From Anaerolineales bacterium (GTDB taxonomy: Bacteria > Chloroflexota > Anaerolineae > Anaerolineales > Villigracilaceae): a stretch of DNA of 64,000 nt. The notes below the pieces were generated by a model. The model saw nothing but the letters and a program-made list of their open reading frames with translations, was not told where the DNA came from and searched no databases. Shown one piece after another: positions 9,296-53,545 of the stretch. Location of the stretch: the NCBI GenBank assembly GCA_030018695.1, contig JASEHI010000001.1, forward strand, positions 60,391-124,390. The letters are read 5' to 3'. Both the position numbers and the translations under genes were made by a program. Each line of letters begins with the position of its first letter. Position 1 is the stretch's first letter.

Positions 9296-10489
9296 TCATG
9301 TTCGGAACAGTACCTGCTCGCGATGGAACTGCCAGACGGCAAAAACAAGCCCGATGGCCGCGTACACTAGAGAGGAAGCCAGCACGACGCCAAATTCCAG
9401 CCCGCCAGCCGTGCCGAGGAAGAGATCGCGCAGGATCAGGTTGGAGCCAAAGATCGGGATGGCATAGGTTGGCAGGCCGGGAGTGAAATCGGGGATCAGC
9501 ATCACGGCCATCGCCGGAATGAGCACCACGAATTGCAGCGGCACGATGTAGTTCTGCGCCTCTTTGAAACTGCGGGCGAAGAGGCACACCGCGATCTCCA
9601 GCGCGCCGAACATCAGCGCGATGGGAAACGCGGCCAGCAGCACGAGAAGCGCCGTCTGCATAGAGACCGTATACGTCACTGCTCCATCCGCTGCCCCCAT
9701 TTCGGGCGTGGCGATCATGAAGGCGACCATCATGCTGGCGAGCGCCAGGATGATGGCGGCCAGCGAGGTGGTGATGACCGCCAGCAGTTTGCCGCTCACC
9801 ACCTGCACCCGCCCGGAGGGGGTCACCAGCAGCGGTTCGAGCGTCAGGCGTTCCTTTTCGCCGGCGGTCACGTCAATGGCGGTGTACATACCGCCCACCA
9901 GCCCCCACAAGATGGTGAACATGGGCAGCATCATGGCGAGGTACTTGCCGCCCATCTGCTGGGACGTGGCGAGGTTTTGGTACTCGGTCTCGAACGGCGC
10001 GAGCAGGGTCACGTCCACGCCGCGCGCCGCCATCCGCTGGGCGACGATGCCCTGGGCATATATCATCAGTAACGTCTCCACCCGCGTCATTTGCACGTCG
10101 GCGGTCATTTTGCTCTGGTCGGAAAGGACGACAATCTGGCCGGGCTGCTTTTCCTGAGCCAGGTCTGCTTCGAAGTTCTCAGGGATACGCAGCCCGACGA
10201 GCGCCTTTTTTTCGCGCAGGAGTGGTTCGATATCGTCGCTCTCGATGACCCCGATGGTCGGATCGGAACGCAGGAAGGCCATCAGCCCCGGCGCATGCTC
10301 GCCGCCGGAAACCGCCACTGTGATCACCGCGCTCTCCTGCTTTTCGAACTGATCGATCATCAGTTTCTGCGGCAGGATGACAAAGAGCGGCATGATCAGC
10401 ACTGGCCCAAGCACCATCGCCCAGAGTGTGCGGCGGTCGCGCAACGAATCCAGCATCTCCTTGAGCCAGACGATGAACACGGTTTTCAT
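9296..10489 (-). CDS. ABC-2 type transporter permease (NatB-like)
   Basis: KEMLDSLRDRRTLWAMVLGPVL, large extracytoplasmic loop, TM cluster; overlaps the ATPase gene. Confidence 0.8.
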   Translation of the reverse strand: MKTVFIVWLKEMLDSLRDRRTLWAMVLGPVLIMPLFVILPQKLMIDQFEKQESAVITVAVSGGEHAPGLMAFLRSDPTIGVIESDDIEPLLREKKALVGLRIPENFEADLAQEKQPGQIVVLSDQSKMTADVQMTRVETLLMIYAQGIVAQRMAARGVDVTLLAPFETEYQNLATSQQMGGKYLAMMLPMFTILWGLVGGMYTAIDVTAGEKERLTLEPLLVTPSGRVQVVSGKLLAVITTSLAAIILALASMMVAFMIATPEMGAADGAVTYTVSMQTALLVLLAAFPIALMFGALEIAVCLFARSFKEAQNYIVPLQFVVLIPAMAVMLIPDFTPGLPTYAIPIFGSNLILRDLFLGTAGGLEFGVVLASSLVYAAIGLVFAVWQFHREQVLFRT

Positions 10490-11223
10490 GATTTAATCTC
10501 CTCGGCCTCAACGCCCACCAGTTGGACAAAGGCCTCTTCCAGCGTGGCCTGGCCGCTCTGCCGCCGCAGTTCTTCCGGCGCGCCGGCGGCCACGATCTGC
10601 CCGCGGTGGATGATGGCAATACGGTCGCACAGGCGCTCGGCCTCGTCGAGGATGTGGGTGGAAAAAAGCACGCAGCGGCCCTCATCCCGAAAGCGGCGGA
10701 TCAGATCGCGCACGCCGCGCACGCTCATCACGTCCAGCCCGGCGGTGGGTTCGTCGAGCAGCATGGTCTTGGGATTATGGATCAGGGCGCGCCCCAGGGC
10801 GACCTTCTGCTTCATGCCTTTCGAAAACGGATCGCAGCGGCGGTTAGCGTATTCGCCCATTTCCAGCAGGGCGATCAGTTCTGTGATGCGCCGTTCCAGC
10901 GGGGCTTCGGCCATACCATAAAGTCGCCCGAAGTAGCGCAGGTGTTCGCGGGCGGTCAGGCGGCCATAGAGGCCCCAGTTCTCGGGCAGCACGCCAATGG
11001 CAGCGCGCACTTTTTCCGGCGCGCGCCGCAGGTCATGCCCGTCCACAGCAGCAGTCCCGGAAGTGGGGCGCAGGATGGTGGCGAGCATGCGCAGGATGGT
11101 GGTCTTGCCCGCGCCGTTCGGCCCGAGCAACCCCATCACCTCGCCGTCGTGCGCCGCGAACGAGACGCCGTTCACCGCGCGCAGCGCGCCGAAGTGTTTG
11201 GTCAGGTTATCAACTGCGATCAT
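10486..11223 (-). CDS. ABC transporter ATP-binding protein (NatA-like)
   Basis: GPNGAGKTT Walker A, LLDEPTAGLD Walker B. Confidence 0.9.
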   Translation of the reverse strand: MIAVDNLTKHFGALRAVNGVSFAAHDGEVMGLLGPNGAGKTTILRMLATILRPTSGTAAVDGHDLRRAPEKVRAAIGVLPENWGLYGRLTAREHLRYFGRLYGMAEAPLERRITELIALLEMGEYANRRCDPFSKGMKQKVALGRALIHNPKTMLLDEPTAGLDVMSVRGVRDLIRRFRDEGRCVLFSTHILDEAERLCDRIAIIHRGQIVAAGAPEELRRQSGQATLEEAFVQLVGVEAEEIKS

Positions 11224-11232
11224 TTTTTTCTC

Positions 11233-11676
11233 CTAAGAAGAATCCTCCCGCAACAACGCTCGAAATCCCGCCTGTTTAAAATGCTCATCCGTGGTCAACG
11301 CTTCGGTAATCCCGCGCTCTTGCATGACAACGAATGAGACACAATCGGTCAGTCCTCATTCCTTATCAGGACGCTCTCGATAGAGTTTGACAGCTCTCGC
11401 ATACAGGTCTTCTGACAGTGGAACAATCTTTACGTTGTGGTCTGCTTCCAGTGCGTTCAACAACTTTACCGCCGCTTGACGATAGCGTTGTTTCGCCAAA
11501 GCATTCCCAAGTTCCAACAAGACTGCACGCGTTGTTACCAAGCGTGTCTTCGCAGCTTCTAACTCGTTGGCAAGGCGAACTGCTCGTTCGTGGAAGGAGT
11601 CGCTTGACGAAGACAAGGCGATTGAGTACGACGAGTCAAGAAACACCTCAGTTCTCACCGGCCAGTGCTCCACCAT
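11233..11676 (-). pseudogene. PIN-domain toxin interrupted by in-frame TGA
   Basis: EVFLDSSYSIAL...YRERPDKE-[TGA]-GLTDCVSFVVMQERGITEALTTDEHFKQAGFRALLREDSS*; the frame continues past the stop at 11356..11358. Confidence 0.85.
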
Positions 11677-11881
11677 ACAGGTACTCTTCCAAGTTGGCTG
11701 ACCAATCTGGGGGGCCTTCTAAGTCGAGTGAGCGTGCTATCTGTAAGAACGATGTCTCTTGTTCTACAGCAGGCGGTATGGTTTCGATAACAATCAACAC
11801 GCGAGTGTTTGGTTCAAGTACGATTGGCTCAGCAGGACGGAACACCGCGCCGTCAAATAATGCTTCAATTGTTCTAGCCAT
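11648..11881 (-). CDS. AF2212/DUF104-like antitoxin
   Basis: MARTIEALFDGAVFRPAEPIVLEPNTRVLIVIE, overlapping the PIN gene. Confidence 0.75.
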   Translation of the reverse strand: MARTIEALFDGAVFRPAEPIVLEPNTRVLIVIETIPPAVEQETSFLQIARSLDLEGPPDWSANLEEYLYGGALAGEN

Positions 11882-12008
11882 TGTTTTTCCTCCAACACTA
11901 AAAGTGCTTTCAGCATTCCATGCCATGCAGAGTATAGCACGGATATGCGCCTTATGCGCAGGGCGCTCATAGGCTTCCTCGCGCCCGCCTAACCACCGAA
12001 ACACCGGC

Positions 12009-12227
12009 TTACCCCGGCCAGCTGTGCCGACGGCGTACCTCGGCAGAAAGTGATCGCTTGGCAACAACGGTGATTTTATTACTGTTTGTGATGGTGTAGG
12101 TACCGACCACTTCCCAGCCTTCCAGGCCCAATTCGTTTAACGTGGCCTCCAGTTCATCTTCCTTCGGCCCGCGCCACATGTTACCCAGGCTGAAAACAGT
12201 GTATTCCCATTTATTTGTATCTGCCAT
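12009..12227 (-). CDS. DUF4177-like small protein
   Basis: KWEYTVFSL...LNELGLEGWEVVGTYT. Confidence 0.6.
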   Translation of the reverse strand: MADTNKWEYTVFSLGNMWRGPKEDELEATLNELGLEGWEVVGTYTITNSNKITVVAKRSLSAEVRRRHSWPG

Positions 12228-12250
12228 ATAACGCTCCTTCGCAGTCTACA

Positions 12251-12266
12251 TGTTTCACGTGAAACG
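12251..12266. promoter_or_regulatory. parS-like ParB-binding site
   Basis: TGTTTCACGTGAAACG, 15/16 to TGTTTCACGTGAAACA. Confidence 0.75.
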
Positions 12267-12293
12267 AGGCGTAAAACGTAATGTCACGCTTTG

Positions 12294-12329
12294 CGTTTTA
12301 CGTTTTACGTTTTACGTTTTACGTTTTAC
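12294..12329. repeat. heptamer tandem array (cgtttta)n
   Basis: gcgttttacgttttacgttttacgttttacgttttacc. Confidence 0.95.
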
Positions 12330-12363
12330 CCTTATTTTGAGATTATCAATTTTGAAGGCAATT

Positions 12364-12379
12364 CGTTTCACGTGAAACG
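12364..12379. promoter_or_regulatory. parS-like ParB-binding site
   Basis: cGTTTCACGTGAAACg, perfect 14-bp palindromic core. Confidence 0.75.
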
Positions 12380-13141
12380 TTACATTTCCTGTTTACGAAA
12401 AACCAACCCGGCGGCCAACAGCGCCGCGAAAATCAATCCCACGCTGACCCAGAGCGCCGGCCAGGCGGCTTCTCCGCTGCCCAAGGTCATGGCTGCGCCC
12501 CAGCCGAACAACCTGCCAGGGGAATAGTCGCTGATGCGGGGCAGCGAGCCGATGCCGCCAATCAGGATGAGCGCGGCAAAGGATAGTCCGGCAGTGGCTG
12601 CCTGTGTCCGCGCCAGTGTGCTGCACAACAAGGTAACCGCGATATAAACCAGAAAAACCAGCAGCATCAAGCCATTGAGCGCCAGGAACGTTCCCCACGG
12701 CAGCGCCTCGAACAGCAGCAGCGTGTAGTACCAGCACCCCAGCGCAGCCAGTATCAGGCTGGCGGCGAAAGTCAGCGCCTGAGCTGTGAATTTCGCCAGC
12801 AAAAACGTTCCACGTGAAACCGGACGCGTCAAGATCAACGCCGCGGTGCCGCGTTCTTTCTCCTGGGCGACCATGCCCATCGTCATCAGCAAGGCCAGCA
12901 GGATGCCGAACTGGCTCATATTCTTGACGTATTGCGTCACTGCATCCGCCAGCGTCGGCGCGGGGATGATAGACGCCAGTTCGGGCGGCATGTTGGGGAT
13001 GGTTTTCAAGATTTCAGGCGTGAACTTTGCCAAGAGCGGAGAACTTAAGCCAAAAGCAACCAGCACCGCCGCGACGATCAGAAATCTAAAGGTGCGCCAT
13101 TGTTCGAGCAATTCTTTGCGCAAGACGATGACGAAATTCAT
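12380..13141 (-). CDS. ABC transporter permease (ABC-2 family)
   Basis: six TM-like segments, RKELLEQWRTFRFLIVA start; coupled to an ATPase gene. Confidence 0.8.
   Translation of the reverse strand: MNFVIVLRKELLEQWRTFRFLIVAAVLVAFGLSSPLLAKFTPEILKTIPNMPPELASIIPAPTLADAVTQYVKNMSQFGILLALLMTMGMVAQEKERGTAALILTRPVSRGTFLLAKFTAQALTFAASLILAALGCWYYTLLLFEALPWGTFLALNGLMLLVFLVYIAVTLLCSTLARTQAATAGLSFAALILIGGIGSLPRISDYSPGRLFGWGAAMTLGSGEAAWPALWVSVGLIFAALLAAGLVFRKQEM
12806..12821. promoter_or_regulatory. parS-like site inside the permease CDS
   Basis: cGTTCCACGTGAAACc, core equal to the B. subtilis-type parS core. Confidence 0.65.
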
Positions 13142-14070
13142 GACACACCTTCCTTCACCAGTTGCAGAAAAACATCCTCCAGCGCCGGCTTGACCTCCGC
13201 GTAGCGCGTCAGCTCCAGTTTGGCCTGCACCGCCGAAGCCAGCAATTCGCGGCGGGCAAAGGCCACATCCTTGACCGTGACCCGCGCCGTCTCACCTTCC
13301 AGACTGACGGCTGTCACCCAATCCGCCTGACGCAGTGAATCAGCCCAGCGGCGCAGTGATTCGCTTTCGATGGCCTCCAACTCGAACACCGGCACGGCGT
13401 ACTGCGCCAGCAGCGCCTCGCGCGGCGACTGGACGACCAGTTTTCCATGATTGATGATGCCAACCACGTCACAGATACGCCCTACATCGGCCAGGATGTG
13501 CGTGGACATGAACACGGTACAACGGCCGCGCAGGCTGTCAATCAGTTCGAGCACGTCCTTGCGCCCGGCAGGATCCAAGGCGCTGACCGGCTCATCCAGG
13601 AACAGCACAGACGGGCGGTGAATGAGCGCCGCGCCCAATCCCAGCCGCTGCCGCATACCGCGCGAGAATCCGCCGATGCGCCGTTTTCGAGTCTCATATA
13701 ATCCGACCTGTTCAAGCAGTTCGCGGATATGCGCCTTGCGCTCGGTGGTGGCAATGCCGTACAAGCGGCCAAGATAATCGAGGAATTCCAGCGGCGTCAT
13801 CCAGGGATAAAAGGCCGGTTCCTCGGGCAGATGACCAATGGTGCGGGATAAAGCGCGTCCGTCGGCAGCGAGGTCAATTCCAGCAACCCTGGCCCGGCCG
13901 GCGGTCGGGCGCGCCAGGCCGGTCAGGATGCGGATGGCCGTCGTCTTACCGGCCCCGTTCGGGCCGAGGAAGCCGAAGACCACGCCCGGTTCGACGGTCA
14001 GGTCCAGTCCGTCGAGGGCGCGCACCGTGCCGTAGACTTTCGTCAGCGATTCGATCTGGATGGCAGTCAT
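13138..14070 (-). CDS. ABC transporter ATP-binding protein
   Basis: GPNGAGKTTAIRIL, FLDEPVSALDP. Confidence 0.9.
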   Translation of the reverse strand: MTAIQIESLTKVYGTVRALDGLDLTVEPGVVFGFLGPNGAGKTTAIRILTGLARPTAGRARVAGIDLAADGRALSRTIGHLPEEPAFYPWMTPLEFLDYLGRLYGIATTERKAHIRELLEQVGLYETRKRRIGGFSRGMRQRLGLGAALIHRPSVLFLDEPVSALDPAGRKDVLELIDSLRGRCTVFMSTHILADVGRICDVVGIINHGKLVVQSPREALLAQYAVPVFELEAIESESLRRWADSLRQADWVTAVSLEGETARVTVKDVAFARRELLASAVQAKLELTRYAEVKPALEDVFLQLVKEGVS

Positions 14071-14273
14071 TCTTCAATCTCTTCTTCCCGGCCGGCAACG
14101 AAATACACGATCGGGCCGATGAAGTTGACGAGAACGATTACCACCGCCCAGAGCCATTTGGCGCTTTTCGTGCGCGGGCGGCGGATCAAATCGGCCAGCG
14201 CGGCGATCATCAGCGCCAGCTGGATGATAATCACTGGCACAAGCAGGGGGATATATTCGCGAATGTTTTCCAT
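14067..14273 (-). CDS. PLDc_N domain membrane protein
   Basis: LLVPVIIIQLALMIAALADLIRRPRTKSAKWLWAVVIVLVNFIGPIVYFVAGR. Confidence 0.85.
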   Translation of the reverse strand: MENIREYIPLLVPVIIIQLALMIAALADLIRRPRTKSAKWLWAVVIVLVNFIGPIVYFVAGREEEIEE

Positions 14274-14328
14274 TTGCTATTTGCCCTTTGCTATTTGCTA
14301 TTTGCTATTTGCTATTTGCCATTTGCTG
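14273..14328. repeat. heptamer tandem array (tttgcta) x8
   Basis: eight consecutive 7-mers, six exact or one mismatch. Confidence 0.95.
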
Positions 14329-14331
14329 ATA

Positions 14332-15333
14332 TTATTTCTTCTCTTTCGGCAAATTCTGCTGCGCCAGCGCGGCCATGCCGCTGATGCCGCCCAGGTTCAT
14401 CGTGTCCACCGCGCTGCTGGGGACGATGATCAGCGCGCCCTTCTCTTTCAGACCCTCGAAGAGCATGTTCATCGCCCGCAGGTGCAGGGCGGTGGGATTA
14501 TCCACGTAGGCTTTGGATGCCTCGGCAAAACTATCGGCGATTTGCATCTCGGATTCGCCCAGGATGACGCGCGCCTGGCGCTCGCGCTCGGCTTGCGCCT
14601 GGCGGGACATGGCGTCCTCGAGATCCTGCGGGATGACGATATCGCGGATCTCGACCGACTGCACGGCCACGCCCCACGGGGTGGTGCGCTCGTCAATCAC
14701 CATCTGTAGTTCCTTGTCAATCGCGCTGCGCCCGACGAGAATATCCGCCAGCATCATGCGCCCGATGATGTCGCGCAATGCGGTCTGCGCCGCCCAGTCC
14801 ACCGCAGCGCGGTAGTTCTCGACTTCCAGAGCGGCCTTTTCGGCATCCCAGACCATCCAGAACAGCACCGCGTCCACGTCCACCGGGACGGTATCCTTCG
14901 TCAGCGTCTTTTGAGCGGCAAAGGGCGTGACCATCACTCGGTGATCAATCCAGGTCGGGGTGGTTTCGACGATAGGAATGATCCAGAACGGTCCCGGCCC
15001 GGCCAGTTTGTGGAATTTGCCCAGCCGCAGGACGATGGCCTTTTCCCACTGCGAGGCTACCTTCAATGCAAACAGGAGGTAGATGCCAATCAGGGTCAGG
15101 CCGATGGTGGTGAGGCCGGTGATATTGTCCGCCACGCCATTTTCAGGCATGAGGATGGCGCTCAAAATGGCCGCCAGCATGAAAATTCCGAACAACGCCC
15201 CGGCGACGCCCGGAATGTGCGGATTGGGTTGTTGGCTTTTCTGGCGGGTGGATTGTTCTTTAGACATGGTTGTCGGGCTCATTTCATTCTCCTTTTTTGG
15301 GTGCAGGTTAATGATCTGGATTTGAATTGTCAT
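14332..15333 (-). CDS. SPFH/Band 7 (slipin-like) protein
   Basis: LRLGKFHKLAGPGPFWIIPIVE...VDVDAVLFWMVWD...GVAVQSVEIRDIVIPQDLEDAMSRQAQAERERQAR. Confidence 0.9.
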   Translation of the reverse strand: MTIQIQIINLHPKKENEMSPTTMSKEQSTRQKSQQPNPHIPGVAGALFGIFMLAAILSAILMPENGVADNITGLTTIGLTLIGIYLLFALKVASQWEKAIVLRLGKFHKLAGPGPFWIIPIVETTPTWIDHRVMVTPFAAQKTLTKDTVPVDVDAVLFWMVWDAEKAALEVENYRAAVDWAAQTALRDIIGRMMLADILVGRSAIDKELQMVIDERTTPWGVAVQSVEIRDIVIPQDLEDAMSRQAQAERERQARVILGESEMQIADSFAEASKAYVDNPTALHLRAMNMLFEGLKEKGALIIVPSSAVDTMNLGGISGMAALAQQNLPKEKK

Positions 15334-15757
15334 CCATGACAGGCTGCCAGTCAGCCGCCTGGTCTTGCCGAGTAGGCGCTGCGCGCAGGAGTTTGGTCAA
15401 CTCTTCCGGCGAGACGCCCAGACGGGCTGCGTCGGTCAGATAGCGCTGGGTGAGGGCTTCCACGGCCTCATGCCGGATGTTCTCGATCATCTCCGGCGGC
15501 GGCATCTCCAGGATGTACGTGCCGCGCCCCTGCTGGGTCGAGATGACGCCCGCTTCGTCCAGAATGCGGTAGGCGCGGGCGATGGTGTTAAAGTTGACGC
15601 GCAATTCCAAAGCCAGGGCGCGGACGGTGGGGAGCTGGTCGCCCGGCTTGAGTTTCCCGGCGGCAAATTGCTGTTTGATCTGCTCGATGATTTGCAGGTA
15701 GATTGGCACGCCGGAGCGCAGGTCAAGGTGGATGGTTTCGCCGAAATTCTTGTTCAT
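15308..15757 (-). CDS. GntR-family transcriptional regulator (YtrA-like)
   Basis: PIYLQIIEQIKQQFAAGKLKPGDQLPTVRALALELRVNFNTIARAYRILDEAGVI. Confidence 0.9.
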   Translation of the reverse strand: MNKNFGETIHLDLRSGVPIYLQIIEQIKQQFAAGKLKPGDQLPTVRALALELRVNFNTIARAYRILDEAGVISTQQGRGTYILEMPPPEMIENIRHEAVEALTQRYLTDAARLGVSPEELTKLLRAAPTRQDQAADWQPVMDDNSNPDH

Positions 15758-15907
15758 AGGAATTGTATCATTGTATGATTGTACTAATTGTATGCCGATG
15801 TTACGACTTTGTCAAGTCCTTTAGTTATTGTGACATTCGTCACTTTTTTTTATTTTTGCCTGATGTATGCTGTATATACAACAATCCATATTTTGGAGGC
15901 GCTCAAA

Positions 15908-16603
15908 ATGACACGTCTCAAATTCCCGCAAATCACAATAGAGAATTTGACTTCAACGCTGACCCTTCTGATTTTAAGTGTACAGGTGATTTTGCTTGTG
16001 TTACTTTCAACCAGAATCGGGAGACTCGAAAAAATATTCGCCAACCTGGCTGGAGGAAATGTTCCTCCACCAATACCTGTTGTCGTTGAACGCACTCCAG
16101 ATGAGCGCGGACAGGTAATCGGGCCAGATAACGCTGAGGTTACAATCGTTGAGTTTTCTGATTTTGAGTGCCCCTATTGCGCTGACGCTGTGCCGGTCAT
16201 AAAAGAAATTCTCGAAAAATACCCATCTCAGGTCCGCTTTGTATATCGACATTTTCCTCTGACGGATATTCACTCTAATGCGTTTCGCGCCGCAGAGGCA
16301 GCCGAAGGCGCCGGCGAACAGGGGAAGTTTTGGGAGATGCACGACAAACTGTTTGCCAATCAAACCGCATTGGACATAGAAAATTTACGCCAATACGCCG
16401 CTGAAATAAATTTGGATCTGGCACTGTTTGCCGTCTGTCTGGAAAGCGGCCGCGCCAGGGCTGCAATCGAGCTAGATCTCGCCGATGGGGAAAAATATGG
16501 GGTGAACAGCACCCCAACTTTCTTTGTCAATAACATGATGGTAATAGGCGACTCTGAATTAGATGATGCAGTAGAAAATGTTCTGAGCAAATCTAATGAG
16601 TAG
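15908..16603 (+). CDS. membrane-anchored DsbA-family thiol oxidoreductase
   Basis: N-terminal TM, EFSDFECPYCADAVPVIKEI (CPYC), GVNSTPTFFVN cis-Pro motif; RBS GGAGG. Confidence 0.85.
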   Translation: MTRLKFPQITIENLTSTLTLLILSVQVILLVLLSTRIGRLEKIFANLAGGNVPPPIPVVVERTPDERGQVIGPDNAEVTIVEFSDFECPYCADAVPVIKEILEKYPSQVRFVYRHFPLTDIHSNAFRAAEAAEGAGEQGKFWEMHDKLFANQTALDIENLRQYAAEINLDLALFAVCLESGRARAAIELDLADGEKYGVNSTPTFFVNNMMVIGDSELDDAVENVLSKSNE

Positions 16604-16636
16604 TTTTGATTTCCTGTTTGTGAAAGGAGTACCACT

Positions 16637-17020
16637 ATGAGAACACTTCGCATTTTAGTTGGCTGTCTATTGCTGGCCGTCACAGTTGTCAATACTGTTT
16701 ATGTGTATGCCCAAGGGGAAGATTCCTTTGGCTGTGGAGGAGATATTCAAACAATCTCCATAGACGAGGTACCTGGCTGTAAAGTACCTTGTGACTCTCG
16801 CTCAATGTGCCGTCAGTATGCATACCACTACCGTACGCCGTGCGGTCGGGATTGTAGTAATGAAGAACAACAATTAAAGCATTATTGTGTAAGATGTTGC
16901 TATCCCAAGCAGTGTAGATGCGGCAATTGGGATTGCTGGCCCATTGGATGTGTCTACAATGAAAACTGTCCCTCTTATTATCTACCGGATGTTTGTGGCA
17001 GTTGCAGCGGAGGTTGTTGA
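16637..17020 (+). CDS. secreted cysteine-rich protein of unknown family
   Basis: signal peptide RILVGCLLLAVTVVNTVYVYAQG; about 17 Cys in about 103 predicted mature residues; RBS AAGGAG. Confidence 0.75.
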   Translation: MRTLRILVGCLLLAVTVVNTVYVYAQGEDSFGCGGDIQTISIDEVPGCKVPCDSRSMCRQYAYHYRTPCGRDCSNEEQQLKHYCVRCCYPKQCRCGNWDCWPIGCVYNENCPSYYLPDVCGSCSGGC

Positions 17021-18925: not shown

Positions 18926-19108
18926 GTGAATAAGCCCGACTTTTCGTTCACAACCAGAATCAGCCATTACAAATGCTGTCTGAATTATTGCCAATGGGGA
19001 TGCAACAAATGCAGGAAAAACGCGTACCCTTACAATATTTGCTACTGCTCCCACGAGGATCTTGTTTCCTGCGGAGGTGGACAGTGCGGTCGTTTTCCAC
19101 AGCCCTGA
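18926..19108 (+). CDS. possible small Cys-rich ORF (9 Cys)
   Basis: GTG start; HYKCCLNYCQWGCNKCRKNAYPYNICYCSHEDLVSCGGGQC; no clear signal peptide. Confidence 0.25.
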   Translation: MNKPDFSFTTRISHYKCCLNYCQWGCNKCRKNAYPYNICYCSHEDLVSCGGGQCGRFPQP

Positions 19109-19224: not shown

Positions 19225-22089
19225 GTGCTTGCGATGGGCTTTCTCCAGCGAAAGTGCGCTCTCTCATGGGTGGCTATTGCGCTGCTATTTGCGGCCACCA
19301 ATGGTTGTACTACTGGCGCGCCATCTAACCCATCTTCAGTGGCAACAAAATCAATACCAGAGGCGACCGCTACGCTGCCGGCCTTTTCGACACCTGTTCC
19401 AGGCAGCCCGGGTAGCGCCGAAAATCCTATCATTATAGGCGCTGAATATGCCGGTGCTTACGACCCCGCGCTGCTGGATCGCTGGCAGGAATGGGCCGAA
19501 AGATTAGAGAATGCGACCGGCCTGAGTTTCGTCGTCGAACCGGGCCCGCCAACCGAACTGGAACTGTTGGAGGCCATGCGCACGGGGGAAATCGGCTTGG
19601 CTTTTCTTACCCCCCTCGCCTATGCCTTTGGACACGAGCGAGGCTGGGTGAAACCGGCTGCTAACGCAGTAGCTACCTGGAACGGGCAGGATGCCAGGCG
19701 CATTATGTTCATCGCCCGCACAGGTACCGGCCTCCATCCAGGCGAGCCGCCTCAAGTCTTCGAGCAATTAAAAGATAAGCGCCCTTGCTATCGGAAACTT
19801 TATCCGCAACTGCCCAGTCTGGCTCCACTTGAGGAATATATCCTCCCTTCTGGCTTATTGGCACTCAATTCGGTCACGACTGGCGCTCCGGTATTTGTTG
19901 GGGGCAGCGATGGCTTTGGCAATGTAGAAGTTGGCGTTTTCTCCAAGGGCTGTGACTTTGCGGCCGTGGATGCATTGCCTCCAGAGCAATTTAGAAACAA
20001 TCTGCCGGAAGGATTATCCGACTTTTCCCGCTGGGCGCAGGAGATGCAGATTCTCTATACTACTCCTCCCATCAATCCATTGGGTGTGATAGCCCTCTCT
20101 TCCACCTTGCCCCAATCGGTACAAGCCCAGATTGCTCATGCCATTGTCTCAATCCCCGGCTTGGATACAGAAATAAAGGAAGTAGATTTTAATGAGTCCC
20201 TGTACAATGAATTCGAGCGTATCGTTGCAGCCTCCGGCGTAGACATCCATAAATATCTCCGTGTATCATGGTGGGCACCGGAAGCGGCAATTTCAGCTGA
20301 TAACCAGTGGGTGGCTCCTCCAAAAGATACGTTGGTAGCAGATGTCCCCATACAGGGAGGCGCGCCCTTTCTCCCTTTCTGGATTTATCAATCTTTGAAC
20401 AGCTTGGTGATTCCCGCAATCTACGCTGAATTGGCCCGACTCGATGCCGGTGGTAATTATTTCCCCTACCTGGCGGCCGACCTCCCCACCCTGCAGAACG
20501 GCTTGGCGCGCTTCACCGGCGCTGGCGAAGACGAGCAGTTCGTGGTCGAGTTTCGTCTGCGCCCCGGCTTGACCTGGCAGGACGGGCAGCCGCTCACGGC
20601 CGATGACCTGGTCTTCTCCTGGAACCTGGTGATGGATCCTGCCTGGCAAGGCTCACACTGGGGGCAGGCCGGCGGGTACGCCCCCGAAATCTATGTGGCT
20701 TCAGTCGAAGCTCCTGGGCCCGACCGCGTCATTTACCGCTTCATGAGCCAGCTCCAGGCGCGCGAAGCCGCCCAGACCGGCGGCAGGTTGGGTATCCCAT
20801 CGTATGCTGCCAGTCTGGCCGGGCAGTCCGGCCCGGTGGTGACTCTGGATTATATGGATGTAGGCCGAAATGTTTTTCCCAAGCATCTCCTGGAAAATAC
20901 CACGCCCCAAAGAATTGCCTCCAGTGAATTTGCCCGCCGCCCGGTGTACGCCGGGGCCTACCGGCTGGTGGAAGGTGGGGAAATGGACAAACCGGTCGTC
21001 CTGGAGGCTTTCGACGATTTCGCTTTGGGGAGACCCCCGATCAAGCGGGTGGTGTTTGGCGCGCAATACTACTCCCCACAGGCTTCTCCCTATTGGCAGA
21101 CCCCCGACATTCTGGCGCAAGCGCTGCCAGCCGGCGCCATCCAGGCTCAATTGGGCTTGCCAGCGGCAAGATTTCGCGAAGGAGAGGATGCGAGCGGGTA
21201 TGATGTACTGACCGCCGACGCGCTGGCGAATGTCAACTGGGTATCCAGAGGATCCTGGGAAGTTCTGGATTTCAACCTCGACAATCCCCACCTGGCCGAT
21301 TTAAGAGTGCGCCAGGCCATCGCCCATGCGATTGACCGGCAGGCGATCATAGACCAGATCCTGCTTGGTCACGGAGAGCAAATGAGAAGTTACCTGCCTG
21401 CCTGGCATCCGCTCTACGCGGGGGACGCAATGCTGCCCGATTATGCCTATGATCCGGGCCAGGCCCGCGCCCTTCTTGAAGCAGCCGGATACGATCTCAG
21501 CCAATATCCTGCCGTGCATCCCAGCCGCGGCGCGCTGACATTGCAGTTGGCTTCCATGGACGTGTACGTTTATCCGCGTCCGCCCATCGCGGCCATGATT
21601 CAGGAGCAGCTTGCCGGGGTGGGCATCCAGGTTGAAGTGGAGTTCTATACCTGGCCCGAATTCGAGGGAGATGATTGTTCGGCCATCCGAAACGGGCGCA
21701 AGTTCGATTTGGGGCTGGCCGCTTGGATGGGTATGGATCTTTATCCCCTCGGGTGGGTGGAGCAGGTAACGGCGATTGCAAGCATCCCCACGGCGAAGAA
21801 CGGCTGCCCCTATGAAAAATCCAACTGGTCGGGTTGGCGCAACCCTGAGGCTGAAACCCTTCGGGTCCAGTTGCATGATGGCCTGCTCGCTCTCGAACGT
21901 CCGGATGAATACCTTGAACTATGGGCCGAGCACCAACGCCTGTGGGCAACCGATTTGCCCAGCCTGCCACTGTTCAGTATGGAGCGCCCGGTGGTGACAG
22001 CGCCGCAACTGCTGGGCGTGCGGCCCAGTCCCTTTGCTTTCGCTGGCGTGGAGGATACGTGGAATATCTTCGCGTGGGTGCTGAAATGA
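19225..22089 (+). CDS. PhnD-like domain fused to SBP_bac_5 domain, lipoprotein
   Basis: PhnD-like ELLEAMRTGEIGLAFLTPLAYAF, then RLRPGLTWQDGQPLTADDLVFSWNLV...NPHLADLRVRQAIAHAIDRQAII; likely start at 19234. Confidence 0.85.
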   Translation: MLAMGFLQRKCALSWVAIALLFAATNGCTTGAPSNPSSVATKSIPEATATLPAFSTPVPGSPGSAENPIIIGAEYAGAYDPALLDRWQEWAERLENATGLSFVVEPGPPTELELLEAMRTGEIGLAFLTPLAYAFGHERGWVKPAANAVATWNGQDARRIMFIARTGTGLHPGEPPQVFEQLKDKRPCYRKLYPQLPSLAPLEEYILPSGLLALNSVTTGAPVFVGGSDGFGNVEVGVFSKGCDFAAVDALPPEQFRNNLPEGLSDFSRWAQEMQILYTTPPINPLGVIALSSTLPQSVQAQIAHAIVSIPGLDTEIKEVDFNESLYNEFERIVAASGVDIHKYLRVSWWAPEAAISADNQWVAPPKDTLVADVPIQGGAPFLPFWIYQSLNSLVIPAIYAELARLDAGGNYFPYLAADLPTLQNGLARFTGAGEDEQFVVEFRLRPGLTWQDGQPLTADDLVFSWNLVMDPAWQGSHWGQAGGYAPEIYVASVEAPGPDRVIYRFMSQLQAREAAQTGGRLGIPSYAASLAGQSGPVVTLDYMDVGRNVFPKHLLENTTPQRIASSEFARRPVYAGAYRLVEGGEMDKPVVLEAFDDFALGRPPIKRVVFGAQYYSPQASPYWQTPDILAQALPAGAIQAQLGLPAARFREGEDASGYDVLTADALANVNWVSRGSWEVLDFNLDNPHLADLRVRQAIAHAIDRQAIIDQILLGHGEQMRSYLPAWHPLYAGDAMLPDYAYDPGQARALLEAAGYDLSQYPAVHPSRGALTLQLASMDVYVYPRPPIAAMIQEQLAGVGIQVEVEFYTWPEFEGDDCSAIRNGRKFDLGLAAWMGMDLYPLGWVEQVTAIASIPTAKNGCPYEKSNWSGWRNPEAETLRVQLHDGLLALERPDEYLELWAEHQRLWATDLPSLPLFSMERPVVTAPQLLGVRPSPFAFAGVEDTWNIFAWVLK

Positions 22090-52856: not shown

Positions 52857-53545
52857 GGAATTTCCCCCGCCAGTTCCTTGTCAATGACCTGTTTGAACAC
52901 CTCGTAAGGTTGTGCGCCGACGATGGGGATGCCGTTGATGAAGAACGTCGGCGTCGAGCGGACACCCAGGTTCACCGCATAGTTGTAATCTGCCATCACT
53001 TCGGATTCATAGCGCCGGTCTGTCAGGCATTTGGCGAAGGCTTGCGTGTCCAGCCCGAGTTCGACTGCATATTGCTGGTAGCCAGCTGTGGTCAGATCGT
53101 ACTTCATGCTGAAGAGAGCCCTGTGGAAAGGCCAATAGGCGCCTTGCGCGCCGGCGCAATCAGCAGCTTCTGCGGCGGGGGCAGCGCCTGGATGGATGCT
53201 AATCAGCGGAAAATCACGGTAGACGAAGCGGACCTGGCCCGGATAGTTGGCCAGCAACCGGTCCAAGACCTCATCGTGCCACTTTTTGCAGTAGGAACAC
53301 TGATAATCGCTGAACTCGATGATCGTAATCGGGGCGTTATCTGGACCCAGGCTGGGATCGTCATCCACCGGCACGTCGTAGCGCCTGACTTGCGCGGTCG
53401 GTGTGGCAAGGGTGGCAGGCGCGGCGTCTGCAACAGATGTACGTCCCCAGATCAGGTAACCGGAGCCTATCCCGAGGACGAAAATCACGGGCAATAGTAA
53501 ACTGTAAATAAAGGGGCACTGAAAGAAGGGAGTGGAATTCTGCAT
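52853..53545 (-). CDS. DsbA-family thiol oxidoreductase
   Basis: EFSDYQCSYCKKWHDEVLDRLL, GVRSTPTFFINGIPIVGAQPYEVF. Confidence 0.9.
   Translation of the reverse strand: MQNSTPFFQCPFIYSLLLPVIFVLGIGSGYLIWGRTSVADAAPATLATPTAQVRRYDVPVDDDPSLGPDNAPITIIEFSDYQCSYCKKWHDEVLDRLLANYPGQVRFVYRDFPLISIHPGAAPAAEAADCAGAQGAYWPFHRALFSMKYDLTTAGYQQYAVELGLDTQAFAKCLTDRRYESEVMADYNYAVNLGVRSTPTFFINGIPIVGAQPYEVFKQVIDKELAGEIP

Follow-up and report, generated by a model that had tools for sequence, protein, structure and literature searches.

A rare, putatively exported cysteine-rich protein encoded ahead of a permuted solute-binding lipoprotein in an Anaerolineales bacterium, and its possible role as a disulfide-folded partner

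Solute-binding proteins (SBPs) are usually thought to act alone, passing their ligand to a permease, and those of family 5 (Opp/Dpp/Nik) often bind peptides. Some disulfide bacteriocins have dedicated thiol oxidoreductases, as sublancin has BdbB. In methylamine dehydrogenase, MauE and MauD oxidise the disulfide-rich light chain (MauA), which then docks on the co-encoded heavy subunit. In Streptomyces, MauE, with or without MauD, lies beside genes for Cys-rich precursors (at least 8 Cys), in what were described as candidate RiPP clusters (decRiPPter, PMC7794033). The locus analysed here recalls each of these systems in part. It belongs to a window of 64,000 nucleotides from an Anaerolineales bacterium (contig JASEHI010000001.1, positions 60,391 to 124,390), in which the following features were recognised:

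15308-15757, minus strand: GntR-type regulator (PF00392, E 1e-16), divergent from the run of five ORFs
15758..15907, no strand: intergenic region upstream of the five-ORF run, common to the divergent GntR-type regulator gene
15908..16603, plus strand: membrane-anchored DsbA-family thiol oxidoreductase with CPYC (PF13462, E 3e-30; PF01323, E 2e-19)
16624..16629, plus strand: ribosome-binding site (RBS) aaggag of the Cys-rich gene, read from the sequence 7 nt before its ATG
16637..17020, plus strand: Cys-rich protein, predicted to be exported, 127 aa with 17 Cys in about 102 mature residues
17036..18922, plus strand: solute-binding lipoprotein of family 5 with lipobox LASC, permuted so that the C-terminal half of its fold precedes the N-terminal half
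18926..19108, plus strand: second Cys-rich ORF, 5'-truncated, 60 aa, 9 Cys, no signal (profile match, E 2e-27)
19225..22089, plus strand: lipoprotein with a PhnD-like phosphonate-binding domain and a canonical family-5 SBP (PF12974, E 7e-16; PF00496, E 1e-54)

The five plus-strand ORFs (DsbA, Cys-rich protein, permuted SBP, second Cys-rich ORF and PhnD-SBP fusion) are separated by gaps of 33, 15, 3 and 116 bp, the first running from the DsbA stop (16603) and the second reaching to the SBP start (17036), and they are followed by the PdxS and PdxT genes. No sigma-70-like promoter match was found on the plus strand of 15758-15907. Among the divergent genes at 10486-15757 are those for two ABC ATPases, one ABC-2 membrane protein and the GntR regulator, and a gene for an SPFH protein also accompanies the regulator and the ABC genes upstream of the run.

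The 16637-17020 protein carries Cys at positions 10, 33, 48, 52, 58, 69, 73, 84, 87, 88, 93, 95, 100, 105, 111, 120, 123 and 127, one of them inside the predicted signal peptide (MRTLRILVGCLLLAVTVVNTVYVYA, a hydrophobic N-terminus judged by eye) and 17 in the ~101-102 mature residues, that is, about one mature residue in six. Against a background of 0.95% Cys in the window's ORFs of at least 300 aa, the binomial chance of at least 17 Cys is ~1e-16, and only five stop-free 100-aa stretches with at least 16 Cys occur in all six frames of the window. The earlier note had described this ORF as encoding about 17 Cys behind a signal peptide, with a good RBS and in no recognised family, and the count, the aaggag and the database searches agree with it: no family match was obtained in Pfam, NCBIfam, PADLOC or PHROGs, a PDB search with a profile of the three-member family described below gave no significant match, and our literature searches returned no description of the family. 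With three sequences as input, too few for a reliable structure or a covariation analysis, the AlphaFold model reached a pLDDT of 47, too low to be usable.

A search of 152 genomes from the same family gave a single true homologue, in a genome of the same genus (G004, E 1e-16). This homologue is longer (204 aa) and has its Cys domain at the C-terminus, where identity is 51% over 79 aligned codons; substitutions between the two genes are mostly synonymous (dN about 0.52, dS about 2.5). The ORF is thus not a chance frame, because this same-genus homologue keeps a Cys at 16 of the 17 mature positions and also lies directly upstream of the orthologous SBP. A more distant homologue, from another family of the order (G169), was found with a two-member profile (E 7e-7; pairwise BLAST against the window protein, P0001, E 9e-8); it bears a Tat-type leader and shares the core PCDSR, H.C.R.CYP..C.C..W. 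Conservation in relatives, on which the earlier note had made its reading depend, was indeed present in both. Searched against 85,462 GTDB species genomes, the three-member profile matched only the records of G004 (a MAG from African mines labelled Chloroflexus sp.) and G169 (an Anaerolineales MAG). Found in three genomes, the family is therefore very rare, which suits a secreted effector that evolves fast no less than a transport subunit. In other genomes of the taxonomic family, weak tBLASTn matches (E 0.004-0.1) were rejected as mostly stop-containing frames or known genes, e.g., ABC ATPases, and weak profile matches in the order and class were likewise mostly chance-read frames or known genes, G169 being the exception. 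Viral contigs and plasmids yielded no relative, only one chance phage match (E 0.8).

The upstream gene belongs to the DsbA family by its fold match, its CPYC and its NSTPTFF (TP before a strand, the cis-Pro site), with 3gyk_A as best solved relative (E 4e-19) and BdbD also matched (E 5e-11). The CPYC thiol oxidoreductase that the earlier note had placed 33 bp before the Cys-rich ORF was hence found again, in motif, Pfam domains and gap. Its description as dedicated to that protein would be a guess from position, given that the genome encodes three further DsbA-like and two VKOR-family proteins. A second DsbA-family gene lies within the window itself (52907-53374, minus strand) and its product is 44% identical to that of 15908-16603.

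Permutation of the SBP encoded 15 bp after the Cys-rich ORF, which had also been reported, was confirmed by the order of its matches: residues 49-286 match positions 315-542 of Opp4A, while residues 408-623 match positions 16-207 of PF00496. Permuted homologues with E below 1e-110, strong matches over the full order, occur in about 30 genomes of the family, and the architecture is a real, conserved one. Examples are G000:C119, G004:C44 and G076:C2 (L089, L090 and L094), and in G000 and G004 a canonical SBP also adjoins; in several genomes, the permuted SBP sits in Opp-type operons beside permease genes. No such Cys-rich neighbour was found at the ~25 permuted-SBP loci inspected elsewhere in the family. 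Both downstream window genes resemble family-5 SBPs in matching PF00496 and carrying lipoboxes, but one is permuted, the other is fused to a PhnD-like domain, and no ABC permease adjoins either.

Among family-5 SBPs there are binders of nickel chelates, and NikA-type models gave weak scores. In line with this, and with a Cys density compatible with metal binding, the 16637-17020 protein could hold metal through its Cys, in a metallothionein-like or cluster-binding manner, with the SBPs importing metal or chelate and the oxidoreductase keeping thiols reduced. We regard this as very unlikely: the protein carries an export signal, the neighbours are oxidising components of the DsbA or MauE type and not DsbD-type reductases, and the Cys spacing is irregular, unlike the repeated CxxC of metallothioneins.

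The gene order around the Cys-rich genes was compared over five loci (window, G004, G169, G121 and G326) and two Cys-rich families, the draft contigs of G004, G169 and G326 ending close to the genes. In G004, the Cys-rich gene is separated by ~4 bp from an orthologue of the permuted SBP, 50% identical to that of the window, and what lies directly upstream is a divergent transketolase gene, with no thiol oxidoreductase there. In G169, the order is a MauD-like protein, the Cys-rich gene and a canonical SBP, the last two overlapping by 8 bp. This MauD-like protein (L095:14550-15152, minus strand) matches TIGR02661 at E 0.002, below its cut-off, and lacks a CxxC; the contig ends just upstream, and a MauE, if present, would lie beyond the readable sequence. 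The two remaining loci, G121 and G326, were found through this MauD-like protein and carry the second Cys-rich family, in the order MauE (PF07291, E 5e-27 and 7e-26, respectively), MauD with CxxC, a Cys-rich protein with a Tat leader and a PhnD-SBP lipoprotein. The link with the SBP is accordingly the constant feature of these loci and the DsbA a replaceable one, absent beside the gene in the nearest relative, G004, because an SBP comes immediately downstream in 3/3 loci of the 16637-17020 family and in 5/5 once the second family is counted, while a thiol-redox gene lies directly upstream in 4/5, and is of three kinds. Three SBP types (permuted, canonical and PhnD-fused) occupy the downstream slot. 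The conserved association of DsbA, Cys-rich ORF and SBP that the earlier note had proposed looking for thus stands for the Cys-rich ORF with the SBP and fails for DsbA, which is missing beside the gene in G004 and elsewhere gives way to MauE/MauD or to the MauD-like protein without CxxC; its export-and-oxidise unit fits the anatomy and is supported in part. One may consider the neighbours coincidental, the Cys-rich protein being a secreted orphan specific to its lineage and functionally unconnected with DsbA or SBP, as the absence of DsbA from this position in G004 and a family of only three genomes would allow. We hold that to be improbable in view of the recurrence of a Cys-rich gene directly upstream of an SBP at every locus, across two families and three SBP types.

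The second family is also represented in the window, by the 18926-19108 ORF, which the earlier note had not reported. It corresponds to the C-terminal part of the Tat Cys-rich protein of G121 and G326, without the leader, and shares its reading frame with the permuted SBP, only the SBP stop and one codon lying between. Compared with the G121 protein (67% identity over 48 codons; dN/dS about 0.18), it keeps 9/9 Cys and is evidently under purifying selection, as judged from these substitutions. Downstream, the 19225-22089 lipoprotein is 63% identical over 950 aa to the SBP that follows the Cys-rich gene in G121, and a search of further genomes for the fusion and for MauE showed the combination of a PhnD-SBP fusion with a Cys-rich gene only in G121, G326 and the window. 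The window's genome has no MauE at E<=1e-8 with that of G121 as query. The simplest history would be that a module of DsbA, Cys-rich gene and permuted SBP took the place of MauE and MauD together with the 5' part of the second Cys-rich gene. The AlphaFold model of the second family reached a pLDDT of 43, likewise too low for a fold comparison. Homology between the two Cys-rich families was rejected, as the profile score was reached by 44/100 shuffles. An unrelated Cys-rich ORF with a Gly-rich tail (15 Cys in 174 residues) was noted near a distant SBP in G056 (L093:10423-10944, minus strand), cut by the contig end.

As the SBP occupies the partner slot, we propose that the Cys-rich protein is a subunit of, or a ligand for, the SBP: the 16637-17020 protein may be a disulfide-folded extracytoplasmic component working with the SBP encoded next, a reading to which we give a little less than an even chance. 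From a mechanistic point of view, the protein would be exported by Sec through its N-terminal signal (the relative in G169 having a Tat-type leader), oxidised by the upstream membrane-anchored DsbA, itself re-oxidised by VKOR-type proteins, of which the parts are present in the genome, and folded outside the cytoplasm around about eight disulfides. The folded knot would then bind, cap or be bound by its cognate SBP, much as the oxidised MauA docks on its heavy subunit. Export and oxidation are the least doubtful of these steps, because the signal, the conserved Cys, the DsbA neighbour and the VKOR and other DsbA proteins of the genome all point to them, whereas the role of the folded protein is deduced from the gene order alone. 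The points counted against an SBP partner are the missing oxidoreductase in G004, the MauD-like protein without CxxC in G169, the AlphaFold pLDDT of 47, the rarity of the family, the absence of a permease near the window SBPs and the permuted SBPs of Opp operons that have no Cys-rich neighbour. A broader version, somewhat doubtful in our view, would be a two-part surface complex of a disulfide-knotted subunit and a solute-binding lipoprotein with a swappable oxidation module (MauE/MauD or DsbA), which would have arisen at least two times, with unrelated Cys-rich subunits and with three SBP architectures, the permuted one included. If true, a recurring cysteine-knot partner that brings its own oxidation gene would be something unusual for SBPs, and MauE/MauD pairs would gain a role outside amine oxidation.

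The main alternative to a working partner of the SBP is that the product is secreted for antimicrobial action or signalling and has the SBP as its receptor. Here, DsbA or MauE/MauD would oxidise a disulfide-rich precursor, which after its release would be sensed or taken up again through a peptide-type SBP, in a pheromone or bacteriocin-like loop. The rare, fast-diverging family, the peptide binding common among family-5 SBPs and the precedent of bacteriocins with their own oxidoreductases favour it, and the divergent ABC ATPases, ABC-2 protein and GntR regulator could serve export or immunity. As in sublancin with BdbB, a product predicted to be exported and to hold disulfides is encoded with a thiol oxidoreductase. 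However, the plus-strand run, made up of DsbA, two Cys-rich ORFs and two SBPs, contains no maturation protease, modifying enzyme such as a glycosyltransferase, peptidase-exporter or recognisable immunity gene; the 102 mature residues with 17 Cys are long for such a peptide; and the relatives' clusters, in their readable parts, are without the divergent ABC genes. The Streptomyces clusters proposed for RiPPs (PMC7794033) add to its case, as they too place MauE(/MauD) beside genes for Cys-rich proteins of unknown function; the likeness is one of description, and it differs in that the constant neighbour here is a family-5 SBP lipoprotein and that the window has a DsbA. Altogether, we find a peptide of this kind rather unlikely.

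The comparison with MauA calls for similar care. Both are small exported Cys-rich proteins with membrane thiol-redox helpers encoded beside them and a partner subunit after or nearby, and the 16637-17020 protein might be a degenerate MauA-like redox subunit, a scaffold without the quinone cofactor now serving as an electron-transfer or structural light chain. In favour of such a descent, the G121 and G326 genes of the second Cys-rich family immediately follow MauE and MauD, and their products have extended Tat leaders that resemble that of MauA (hmmsearch matches in a six-sequence set, E 8e-7 and 1.5e-4); moreover, the MauA of Thermomicrobium roseum precedes its partner genes in the same order. 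By contrast, PF02975 was matched neither by P0001, P0004 and the G004, G169, G121 and G326 proteins nor in the window's genome, and our own MauA profile, built from verified sequences (a reference identical to 1mg2 and further ones from plasmid records), gave no score for P0001. The mature-domain profile score was reached by 93/100 shuffles for the 16637-17020 family and by 15/100 for the second, both thus no better than shuffled sequence. By eye, SW..C and CPxG motifs in G121 had suggested homology, which neither the profile nor the shuffle tests bore out. Of the two conserved Trp that form the cofactor, the 16637-17020 family does not have the pair: tryptophan tryptophylquinone could not form, because W98 is the sole Trp invariant among the three members. 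No MauE or MauD lies beside 16637-17020, where DsbA takes the helper's place and the leader resembles the Sec type, and no beta-propeller heavy chain was found near it, the neighbours being SBPs and PdxS/PdxT. We therefore give little credence to a MauA-derived subunit, and the analogy drawn above for a partner of the SBP is one of working, not of descent. In T. roseum itself (megaplasmid NC_011961, 479628-503852; L118), about five MauA-like genes stand in tandem. One of them is annotated and exceeds the PF02975 cut-off, the rest lack annotation in the gene table, and one gene looks frameshifted; they alternate with genes for ~400-aa predicted beta-propeller proteins, and a gene fusing a propeller to MauE closes the set together with a MauD-like gene.
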